From Xenococcaceae cyanobacterium MO_188.B32 (GTDB taxonomy: Bacteria > Cyanobacteriota > Cyanobacteriia > Cyanobacteriales > Xenococcaceae), in the NCBI GenBank assembly GCA_030065635.1, contig JASJDJ010000011.1:1-64000 (forward strand): 64,000 nucleotides of DNA, written 5' to 3'. Shown piece by piece: positions 43,504 to 58,038 of the stretch. The notes below the pieces were generated by a model. The model was not told where the DNA came from and did not search any database. It saw nothing but the letters and a program-made list of their open reading frames with translations. Positions within the stretch are counted from its first letter, which is position 1. The number at the start of each line of letters is the position of its first letter. Both the position numbers and the translations under genes were made by a program.

Positions 43504-43570
43504 ACACAAAATCAACACCCTACTCCCAAGCCTTTTCTCCCTAAAAAGAGAAGCCTGAATCCAGAGAAAT

Positions 43571-43605
43571 GTTTAATGTTTAATGTTTAATGTTTAATGT
43601 TCAAT
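43571..43605. repeat. Heptamer tandem repeat (GTTTAAT)x4-5
   Basis: Four exact GTTTAAT units and a fifth, GTTCAAT, in direct succession. A further example of the seven-base repeat class. Confidence 0.75.
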
Positions 43606-43681
43606 GAAGGGTCAATGCGAAACTCCTAGATTATTATTTAAGTTAATTAAAAATTAAAACTGCCCCTCAAATAACTGATAT

Positions 43682-45538
43682 TTATTCTCGGCTTATCCAC
43701 TGATATATTTTGCGTAGTCTCGCCTCTATTTCTGGTGGCTTAGAAGTAAAAATAATGTAAAAACAATTCTTGCCTGCCGATTTTTCTGTCACTTTGGCAT
43801 AAATGTCGTCACTTACTGGTTTGGAACTAGTAGGCAAGATAATATTTAGTTTTATATTACTATTAGACTCGGCTTTACCATTATTTTCTACGGGATTAAT
43901 TTTTACTTTAGCTCCTTTTGCAGAAAGTTCTATCAAACTACCTTTAAAAATAGTGTCGCTCACATTTTTTCCTTCCAAAATTGTATATTGAATGGGAAGT
44001 TCTACTGCAAGTGGGAAAAATTGTTCTTGTTCTTTAGGCAAAAACAGATTGTAAAAACCGCCAATTCCCCAAACATCATAAATCCGGATCGGTTTTTCTA
44101 TACCTTTGACAGTTACTTGTTTTTGTCCCGCAATTTTGACAATAGATTCTACTTCTTTTAAAGTCGTTTCAGAAATCAGAATTTGACCACCTGTAGTGCA
44201 CGATTCGATTCGATAAGTAAGATTGACTTGGTTACCTACAATACCGTACTTAGTGCGTTTTTCCGAGCCAATATTACCGACGACCGCCTCGCCAGTGTTG
44301 ATCCCAATCCCCATTTCCAATGCAGGTAAGCCCATTTGTTTCATATGTTCGTTAACCGCACCCATTTTTAACTGCATGGCACAAGCACAAGCCACTGCTC
44401 TAATCGCATCATCTTCTCTAGCAACAGGCGCACCAAATAAAACCAAAATACCATCGCCCATAAACTCATCTATAGTTCCTTGATACTCGGTAATTACATC
44501 TGCCATGTATTCCAGGTAGATGTTGAGTATATCGATTACTTCTTCAGGAGGCATCCGTTCTGAAATAGCAGTAAAGCCTCTAAGATCGGAAGTAAGAATC
44601 GTAATTTTACGTCTTTCGCCACCAAGTTTGAGTTTTTCCTCAGCAGCAGCTTTCAGTAAGACCGTGACAATTTCATTACTGATATAACGCCCAAAAACTT
44701 GGCGAATTAAACCATTTTTTTGTTCTAAGTCGACATTGGCATCTGCTAACTCTGCCGTGCGCAACCTAACTTCTCCTTCTAACTGTTTTGTCGATTGACG
44801 TAATCTCCCGAAAACTAAACTTATACCGAACAAAGATAGTATGGATAATCCTCCTAATTTTAGGGACAAGTCCGCTATGTTGTGCTGGTTTTGTTCCATG
44901 AAGGTATCTAGAGGCTGAATGAGTTCCATAATGCCTCGTATATCTCCAATTCTCCAATCTGTCTTGGGACTTTGGGGATGGGTGTTGTGACAAGAGACAC
45001 AGCTTGCTTTCATCACAAGCGGCATTCCATAGCGCATGGAAAGACGATTTTTGTAGTTTTCAATACGATAGTACGAACTAACCGCATGGTTTTTGAAATA
45101 ATCGAGCGCATCTCGTTCGAATTTGTCTTGGGGTCCTCCCGTACCATCCTCTAGGCGATTGGGAAAGGGATAGTCGCTATAAACTCGAAAACGAAAGTTA
45201 CCTTTCCGTTCGCTAATTCTTTCTCCTAAAACAATTGAATAAGTAGAAGGTGGGGGGATTGCTCCTTCTATTGTGGGATAGTTTTCACTGACTGGAACTT
45301 CATGTGTGATGCGCCCGACCACATCATCGCTGTAGAGTTGTACTGCCTCGCCAAGAGCTTTAATACACCACTCGGCATTTTTACTTGCTTGTAATTCCAC
45401 TAAATCAAAGGAAAGATTGTTAACAGCTATCCAAGCGAGCGCACCTCCTGCACACGTAAGAACTACCAATACTAGAATAATCTGCTTGAGTAAAAAACTA
45501 ACCAATCGATGCCAAATTCTCGATATTAACTGTTGCAT
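43682..45538 (-). CDS. Haem-motif sensor adenylate/guanylate cyclase with C-terminal PilZ-like domain
   Basis: 618 residues. A membrane segment (about 15-38), an extracytoplasmic DUF3365-type sensor (about 45-215) with CVSCH (Cys180, Cys183, His184), a haem c motif, a second membrane segment (about 226-244), a short coiled linker and a class III cyclase domain (about 305-490). The metal Asp residues are Asp318 (TSDLRGF) and Asp362 (EFMGDG); Lys430 (RTKYGIVG) and the VNLTYR Asn/Arg are in place. The tail (about 515-615) resembles PilZ, but the RxxxR is absent and D/NxSxxG reads ELSAKG. Likely a redox- or gas-sensing cAMP producer; c-di-GMP binding is doubtful. Confidence 0.87.
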   Translation of the reverse strand: MQQLISRIWHRLVSFLLKQIILVLVVLTCAGGALAWIAVNNLSFDLVELQASKNAEWCIKALGEAVQLYSDDVVGRITHEVPVSENYPTIEGAIPPPSTYSIVLGERISERKGNFRFRVYSDYPFPNRLEDGTGGPQDKFERDALDYFKNHAVSSYYRIENYKNRLSMRYGMPLVMKASCVSCHNTHPQSPKTDWRIGDIRGIMELIQPLDTFMEQNQHNIADLSLKLGGLSILSLFGISLVFGRLRQSTKQLEGEVRLRTAELADANVDLEQKNGLIRQVFGRYISNEIVTVLLKAAAEEKLKLGGERRKITILTSDLRGFTAISERMPPEEVIDILNIYLEYMADVITEYQGTIDEFMGDGILVLFGAPVAREDDAIRAVACACAMQLKMGAVNEHMKQMGLPALEMGIGINTGEAVVGNIGSEKRTKYGIVGNQVNLTYRIESCTTGGQILISETTLKEVESIVKIAGQKQVTVKGIEKPIRIYDVWGIGGFYNLFLPKEQEQFFPLAVELPIQYTILEGKNVSDTIFKGSLIELSAKGAKVKINPVENNGKAESNSNIKLNIILPTSSKPVSDDIYAKVTEKSAGKNCFYIIFTSKPPEIEARLRKIYQWISRE

Positions 45539-45911: not shown

Positions 45912-47333
45912 ATGCCAGAAACAGCCCAAGAAGTCTTGAAAATGATTCAAGACCAAGACATTAAAATAATTGACCTCAAATTTATTGATATGCCAGGTAT
46001 CTGGCAACATTGCTCTTTCTACGTATCTGAAATTAGTGAAGATTCTTTTGTTAACGGCGTTCCTTTCGATGGTTCTAGCATTAGAGGATGGAAAGCGATT
46101 AATGAATCGGACATGGCGATGGTTCCCGATCCCAAAACTGCTTGGATCGATCCTTTTTACCAAGAACCAACTCTAAGCATGATTTGCAGCATTAAAGAAC
46201 CTCGTACTGGAGAATGGTATAGCCGAGATCCTCGTTCTATTGCTCAAAAAGCTCTTGATTTTCTTACCAGTACCGGTATTGGTGACACTGCCTTTTTTGG
46301 CCCTGAAGCTGAATTTTTTGTCTTTGATGATGTTCGTTTCGATCAGACCGAAAGCCAAGGTTACTATTATGTAGATAGTGTAGAAGGACGTTGGAATAGT
46401 GGTCGTCAAGAAGATAGTGGTAACTTAGGTTACAAGCCTCGTTATAAAGAAGGGTATTTTCCTGTCGCTCCTACCGATACTCTACAAGATTTGCGAACAG
46501 AAATGCTGCTGACCATGGCCAAATGTGGCGTACCGATCGAAAAGCATCACCATGAGGTAGCTACAGGGGGACAAAATGAACTGGGTATTCGTTTTGCACC
46601 CATCATTGAGGCAGGGGATAATTTGATGATTTATAAATACGTCATCAAAAATGTGGCTAAAAAGTATGGTAAAACCGTTACTTTCATGCCTAAACCTCTG
46701 TTCAATGATAATGGTTCGGGGATGCACACCCATATGTCTATTTGGAAAGGCGGACAACCTCTATTCTGGGGCGATGGTTACGCCAACTTAAGTAAAGTAG
46801 CTTTGAATGCTATTGGCGGTATTCTAAAACACGCTCCTGCTCTTTTGGCTTTTACGAATCCTACAACTAACTCTTATAAGCGTCTTGTACCTGGTTTTGA
46901 AGCTCCTGTAAACTTGGCTTACTCTCAGGGTAATCGTTCTGCATCGGTGCGTATTCCTTTATCTGGTTCTAACCCTAAAGCAAAACGCTTTGAGTTCCGT
47001 TGTCCCGATGCTACTTCTAATCCTTATCTTTCTTTTGCAGCAATGCTTTGTGCTGCCATAGATGGAATTAAAAACGAAATCGATCCGGGAGAACCTTTAG
47101 ATGTGGATATTTACGATCTATCTCCTGAAGAATTGAGTAAAATTCCTTCTACTCCTGGTTCTTTGGAAGAAGCATTAGAAGCTTTAGAAAAAGATAGTGG
47201 CTTCTTAACTAGTACTGGTGTTTTTACTGAAGATTTTATTCAGAATTGGATTGAATACAAACTAGACAACGAAGTTAACCCTCTACGTTTGCGTCCTCAT
47301 CCTTATGAGTTTGCACTTTATTACGATTGTTAA
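45912..47333 (+). CDS. glnA: Glutamine synthetase type I
   Basis: 473 residues, the GSI length. Visible signatures: [13 protein letters not shown] near residue 50, the ATP-binding [16 protein letters not shown] (about 258-273) and NRSASVRIP (about 338-346) with the active-site Arg. Like cyanobacterial GSI it probably is not adenylylated but inhibited by the small factors GifA/GifB; neither gene is in the window. It fixes ammonium onto glutamate. Its neighbours gltB/gltD (upstream) and amt (downstream) make this a nitrogen region. The ribosome site AAGGAGC is well placed and a strong terminator follows the stop codon. Confidence 0.97.

Positions 47334-53091: not shown

Positions 53092-58038
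<4,947 letters not shown>

Follow-up and report, generated by a model that had tools for sequence, protein, structure and literature searches.

A predicted haem-Cache guanylyl cyclase with a PilZ-fold tail in a Xenococcaceae cyanobacterium

Little is understood of how bacteria signal with cyclic GMP, and few inputs to it are known. Cya2 (Sll0646) of Synechocystis PCC 6803 is described as making cGMP, and the exchange E488K as turning it into an adenylyl cyclase (PMC5995499, PMC10117731). Published Cya2 constructs include a coupling segment with a named motif, FGRY (PMC5995499), and are described as containing a C-terminal extension of 118 amino acids that strongly raises cyclase activity and is termed structurally uncharacterised. 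A second relevant group is formed by the haem-binding Cache sensors. The Tll0287/DUF3365 family has been redefined in a 2026 preprint under the new name sCache_heme, with haem binding through a CxxCH motif, 99% conserved, as its defining feature; covalent haem was demonstrated in two members, and Guanylate_cyc is listed among the fused outputs in the architecture figure (PMC12889525). In the same preprint a signalling-type member without the axial cysteine bound nitric oxide (NO) and released it slowly, a result that rests on one Pseudomonas protein, whereas no such binding with slow release was found in a stand-alone member (PMC12889525). The Geobacter sensors GSU0582 and GSU0935 have been interpreted as redox-linked coordination switches (PMC8396549). 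Finally, among the metallo-beta-lactamase (MBL) phosphodiesterases, Apyc1 cleaves all cyclic mononucleotides while its relative YhfI prefers cAMP and cGMP, and the Apyc1 Pfam model falls within a wider group of MBL phosphodiesterases that includes the YhfI branch (PMC9117128).

The gene considered here lies in a 64,000-nucleotide stretch of contig JASJDJ010000011.1 from Xenococcaceae cyanobacterium MO_188.B32, referred to below as the window. An initial annotation had proposed that a c-type haem sensor, a cyclase and a PilZ-like tail are combined in a single chain, and this is borne out by an open reading frame with the following parts, given in the order of the protein: transmembrane helix, sCache_heme (Tll0287-like) sensor, transmembrane helix, FGRY coupling segment, Cya2-type guanylyl cyclase (as predicted) and PilZ-fold tail.

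43682-45538, minus strand: whole open reading frame, 618 amino acids plus stop
45425-45481, minus strand: predicted transmembrane helix 1, residues 20-38 (19-residue Kyte-Doolittle value 2.56)
44873-45421, minus strand: extracytoplasmic haem-Cache sensor, residues 40-222 (Pfam PF11845, AlphaFold, fold match)
45365-45367, minus strand: Cys58, restricted to the window protein and its two nearest orthologs
44987-45001, minus strand: CVSCH haem c attachment motif, residues 180-184, the family-invariant CxxCH
44801-44869, minus strand: predicted transmembrane helix 2, residues 224-246 (Kyte-Doolittle 1.81 for 224-242)
44633-44800, minus strand: linker and coupling segment, with FGRY at 282-285, a motif known from Cya2 constructs
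44018-44632, minus strand: class III cyclase catalytic domain, residues 303-507 (phmmer match to Cya2 2w01, residue table)
43685-44017, minus strand: PilZ-fold tail lacking RxxxR, residues 508-618 (AlphaFold, fold searches, tail profile)

Two of these domains are recognised by Pfam above the curated cut-offs, namely Tll0287-like (DUF3365) at residues 66-208 (E 3.5e-17; 63.6 bits for PF11845 against a cut-off of 24.1) and Guanylate_cyc at 309-486 (E 1e-25). Since hydropathy predicts one transmembrane helix before the sensor and one after it, the sensor should face outward, and the FGRY motif follows the second helix. The combination of haem sensor, class III cyclase and tail is far beyond chance, recurring in full-length orthologs of 80, 71 and 60% identity and in about 31 distinct proteins of the same three-part architecture.

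The CVSCH motif lies, as first annotated, in a DUF3365-type extracytoplasmic domain flanked by the predicted transmembrane helices, and its C180, C183 and H184 are invariant in all 90 family sensors. A single-sequence search of the sensor against the PDB gave no match and the sensor profile matched Tll0287 weakly (E 0.0063), so the assignment rests on Pfam together with the fold. The fold was taken from an AlphaFold model, built from an alignment of 64 family sensors, with a pLDDT of 92.9. Its top structural match in the PDB is Tll0287 (5b82; Z 14.0, rmsd 3.4, 144 residues aligned), with other Cache domains following at Z 10.6 or less. Similarly, a scan of the genome contigs with the single protein returned no match, whereas the sensor alignment succeeded as a query. 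The genome also encodes ResB, a haem c attachment gene, and the extracytoplasmic domain, judged by its motif and fold, probably carries covalently bound haem. The same genome holds further proteins of this kind: L001 and L002 (G000:C255 and C152) are haem-Cache proteins whose cytoplasmic end is HAMP-like and which lack an output domain, resembling the NO-binding Pseudomonas protein of PMC12889525, and L004 (G000:C258:30345-33743) is a stand-alone Tll0287-like protein located beside a multihaem cytochrome and about 6 kb from a ResB match.

What such a haem would sense can be approached through its ligands. A further cysteine, the axial ligand in helix 2, is invariant across 12 Tll0287 orthologs; it has no counterpart in the window protein (profile alignment, probability 96.6), where helix 97-112 contains no Cys, Met or His. 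Because the family sensors share no conserved distal Cys, His or Met, a small ligand, most likely NO, or a change of redox state could alter the coordination of the iron, and by analogy with the studied members the haem is probably a sensor for one or the other. Redox sensing stays a live rival because Geobacter members of the same fold have been interpreted as redox-linked coordination switches (PMC8396549). Such a receptor would keep its cGMP output and respond to redox potential by switching ligands upon reduction, with Cys58, unique to the three-member clade of the window protein, as a possible clade-specific ligand. Through Cys58, the protein of this clade might then sense redox state instead of a gas. 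However, the axial cysteine of the redox-type Tll0287 is missing from the window protein, the signalling-type member without that cysteine behaves as an NO sensor (PMC12889525), and Cys58 sits in helix 1 and not in the helix that bears the Tll0287 cysteine. We consider redox sensing unlikely on this balance, if still a serious contender. The position of Cys58 also led us to reject its equivalence with the Tll0287 axial cysteine, and a proposed exchange of Cys58 for His85 as ligand was dropped: His85 is found in 62 of the 90 sensors, yet several groups without Cys58 lack it as well.

The catalytic domain was first described as a class III cyclase with intact metal residues, and D318 and D362 are present; together with the catalytic N439 and R443 they occur in essentially all relatives. 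The domain matches Cya2 (2w01) with an E of 7e-80 in phmmer and is about 59% identical to it. In the alignment its base-selecting residues, E358 and G432, are those of Cya2, whereas the aligned adenylyl cyclases have K at the first specificity site; the 6fht construct of Cya2 shows the E488K lysine. The residues thus predict cGMP and not cAMP, and cGMP is most likely the product. Of the proposal that the protein connects redox or gas sensing with cAMP, the first half stands, in that a c-type haem sensor is coupled to a cyclase and redox or gas sensing is plausible, and the second half does not, as the residues are of the guanylyl type. Mainly cAMP as product would accord with the predominance of adenylyl cyclases among the class III enzymes of bacteria, with the adenylyl-type K of a sister family that bears the same sensor, and with four of the 31 three-part relatives, from Moorena and Oscillatoria SIO1A7, that have K/S in these positions. 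It is nevertheless improbable for the window protein, given that E358 and G432 are identical to the residues of Cya2, that the remaining 27 of the 31 relatives agree, and that a single E-to-K change is described as sufficient to convert Cya2 (PMC5995499).

The product is not uniform across the family, because some members carry K/S instead of E/G. The four PilZ-tailed haem-Cache cyclases concerned (L044, L063, L065 and L067) are predicted to represent a natural switch to cAMP. The sister family, of about 500 amino acids, combines the same sensor with adenylyl-type residues and no tail, and other proteins with this sensor carry GGDEF. As Cya2-type, adenylyl-type and GGDEF fusions all occur, one sensor type is predicted to feed cGMP, cAMP and c-di-GMP. 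In addition, L091 and L100 are haem-Cache cyclases of the guanylyl type that end directly after the catalytic domain, with no PilZ tail.

The tail itself is barely recognisable as PilZ at the level of sequence. Alone, it scores 18.3 bits against a Pfam cut-off of 22.5; 33 of 59 family tails match the PilZ model at E values up to 1 (best 1.1e-5), and the tail profile finds no relative by sequence in the PDB. Its AlphaFold model (pLDDT 82.7) is another matter, in that PilZ structures fill the first 31 ranks of the Foldseek search and the first 28 ranks of a second look, with Z up to 11.9. With PilZ structures in all top ranks, a PilZ fold is predicted. This agrees with the initial annotation of a PilZ-like C-terminal domain lacking RxxxR and goes against the eventuality, considered there, that the tail does not fold as PilZ.

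The motifs for binding c-di-GMP are missing throughout the family: RxxxR is found within the first 35 residues of 1 of 59 tails, [DN]xSxxG in 2 of 59, and acidic residues occupy the N-terminal segment where RxxxR would be. K524 and Y580, on the other hand, are invariant in all 59. The same tail also ends the Cya2-type CHASE2 cyclases, one of which, L007 (G000:C76:44944-45948), is encoded in the window's own genome. The tail profile matches near-identical orthologs of Cya2 (catalytic domains 98% and 96% identical) at about 1e-30, and the window tail and the Cya2 C-terminal extension are homologous. From the absence of the motifs and from homology to an extension that stimulates its cyclase, the tail is best seen as an intramolecular part of the cyclase module and not as a c-di-GMP receptor; binding of c-di-GMP appears unlikely from the residues present. 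A true receptor for c-di-GMP, or another nucleotide, gating the cyclase through a non-canonical site would draw on the PilZ fold and on the invariance of K524 and Y580. It has to contend with the family-wide absence of both motifs, the acidic replacement at the place of RxxxR, and Cya2 constructs that are described as active and light-regulated, the accessible part of that account making no mention of added c-di-GMP, and we regard it as rather improbable. A predicted PilZ fold without c-di-GMP motifs would answer the open structural point about the stimulating Cya2 extension, which is used in optogenetic tools; a literature search found no earlier report of a PilZ tail on Cya2.

A possible means of signal removal is suggested by gene order. 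Directly downstream of both nearest orthologs, on the same strand, lies a metallo-beta-lactamase gene that matches the Apyc1 cyclic mononucleotide phosphodiesterase family of Pfam (PF23023; E 8e-22 and 4e-25). Across 60 genomes a Cya2-type cyclase occurs in 25, the phosphodiesterase in 17 and both in 15 (Fisher p 5e-6, with no correction for ancestry), and the phosphodiesterase gene is directly downstream on the same strand, at a gap of 28-157 nt, in 12 of the 17 genomes that have it. Near-identical Cya2 orthologs are followed by it likewise. The pairing supports a cyclic mononucleotide as product, and the MBL-fold enzyme is a candidate for the cognate cGMP phosphodiesterase. In the window's genome the ortholog (71-72% identity) is found on another contig (G000:C3:1938-2681). 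Apyc1-like genes directly 3' of Cya2-type cyclases, with either sensor, are located at L156:10969-11712, L158:10594-11337 and L154:2491-3234, and further at L176, L180, L184 and L185. At the place of the orthologs' phosphodiesterase, downstream of the window cyclase, there is a short tandem repeat at 43570-43610 (TTAATGTTTAATGT...).

The phosphodiesterases near relatives match the Apyc1 model, which is named for Anti-Pycsar, and the PycC models of PADLOC match the cyclase domain (E 6.6e-25), as would be expected of a Pycsar-like antiphage cyclase. The PycC matches hardly extend beyond the common class III fold, however, no Pycsar effector adjoins the window gene, and the Apyc1 Pfam model takes in the wider MBL phosphodiesterase group, whose YhfI branch prefers cAMP and cGMP (PMC9117128). 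An antiphage role is therefore extremely improbable, and Pycsar identity was rejected with the PADLOC matches taken to reflect merely the class III fold.

The relationship between the two sensor types can be followed in trees. In the tree of cyclase plus tail, three changes are needed to place the haem-sensor proteins among those with CHASE2; they form one main clade of 25 (support 98), while those of Moorena and Oscillatoria branch separately, next to a CHASE2 cyclase with K/S, and one E/K change is required. In the sensor tree the same proteins group with haem-Cache cyclases and diguanylate cyclases. The simplest reading of these trees is that a haem-Cache sensor took the place of CHASE2 on a Cya2-type module, a replacement that probably happened more than once.

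Some relatives have a further neighbour. Of 32 haem-sensor loci, 18, chiefly from Nostocales and Leptolyngbya-like genomes, have a divergent NB-ARC/WD40 STAND protein next to the gene; at L064:5875-9594 (minus strand) and 17 other loci it is an HTH/NB-ARC/WD40 gene of about 1200 codons immediately upstream of the haem-Cache cyclase. These proteins resemble each other more than they do the STAND proteins of the window's genome. None adjoins the haem adenylyl cyclases, haem GGDEF proteins or CHASE2 cyclases at their loci, and a distant STAND match (33-36%) occurs in 5 of 36 haem adenylyl cyclase loci. As no STAND protein is found near the window gene, this neighbour is left out of the explanation.

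The immediate neighbours of the window cyclase are an allophycocyanin-type gene and glnA, the latter running divergently at 45912-47333 on the plus strand, as first noted, and glnA, gltB, gltD and amt surround the gene. A possible link to nitrogen status had been drawn from this. It does not hold: none of these four genes is near the cyclase gene in any of 35 relatives, the 80% identical ortholog included, and the intergenic region shared with glnA contains no perfect NtcA box (GTAN8TAC). The linkage to glnA is incidental, the nitrogen connection was rejected, and the reading of the protein should be revised, with cGMP in place of cAMP and with NO or redox in place of nitrogen. Elsewhere in the window, at 53110-58038 on the plus strand, a GyrB frame of 1642 amino acids apparently contains two inteins, with Hint-like motifs.

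A model can be assembled on the computed domains, topology, folds, motif conservation, E/G residues, homology of the tail to Cya2 and operon-like phosphodiesterase pairing in relatives, with haem attachment, the NO ligand, GTP as substrate, the direction of regulation and the specificity of the phosphodiesterase as its inferred parts. The Cache domain would hold haem c covalently, with H184 of CVSCH as a ligand, and the coordination of this haem would be altered by NO, most likely, or by a redox change. The second transmembrane helix and the FGRY segment would relay this alteration to the class III cyclase, which would act as a dimer and make cGMP from GTP, with the PilZ-fold tail supporting its activity intramolecularly. 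An MBL phosphodiesterase of the Apyc1/YhfI kind, adjoining the cyclase in close relatives and encoded elsewhere in the window's genome, would remove the cGMP. We hold this one-component haem-Cache receptor, with cGMP output, the tail as part of the module and removal by the MBL enzyme, to be reasonably probable. The family would unite, in a single traceable module, a defined input through haem c that probably responds to NO or redox, an output predicted to be cGMP, and a phosphodiesterase that is a candidate for a dedicated partner. The natural E-to-K relatives in Moorena offer a test case for the evolutionary change of product specificity. A literature search found no earlier report of a haem-Cache guanylyl cyclase.

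In relation to known systems, the window protein shares with Cya2 the E/G residues, the FGRY segment and a PilZ-fold tail of 110-118 amino acids, but its sensor is haem-Cache where that of Cya2 is CHASE2. With the sCache_heme sensors (Tll0287 5B82, GSU0582/GSU0935, Pseudomonas) it has in common the Cache fold, CxxCH and an extracytoplasmic site; the members studied in PMC12889525 are not linked to cyclases, whereas here the sensor is joined to a cyclase predicted to be of the guanylyl type and followed by a PilZ-fold tail. The cyanobacterial haem-Cache cyclases of about 500 amino acids (L036 and L115, Microcoleus) have a homologous sensor and are 35-39% identical overall, but they belong to another cyclase branch, carry adenylyl-type K/D and lack the tail. 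PilZ domains share the fold of the tail (Z up to 11.9) and differ by the c-di-GMP motifs, which the tails lack family-wide. The partner phosphodiesterase gene shares PF23023 with Apyc1 and YhfI but, unlike Apyc1, is chromosomal and stands beside a predicted guanylyl cyclase, and is not a phage gene. The animal NO-stimulated soluble guanylyl cyclase would work alike, its class III guanylyl cyclase also being under the control of a haem sensor. The animal enzyme is a heterodimer with a cytosolic H-NOX domain and haem b, whereas the window protein, in which Pfam finds no H-NOX match, sits in the membrane and is predicted to carry its haem c outside the cytoplasm, on a Cache fold. Assembled from different parts, it may correspond in bacteria to the NO receptor of animals; the fuller proposal, tentative and somewhat doubtful, is of an NO-gated transmembrane guanylyl cyclase with extracytoplasmic haem c and its own MBL cGMP phosphodiesterase, which would have arisen by replacement of CHASE2, independently of the animal soluble guanylyl cyclase.
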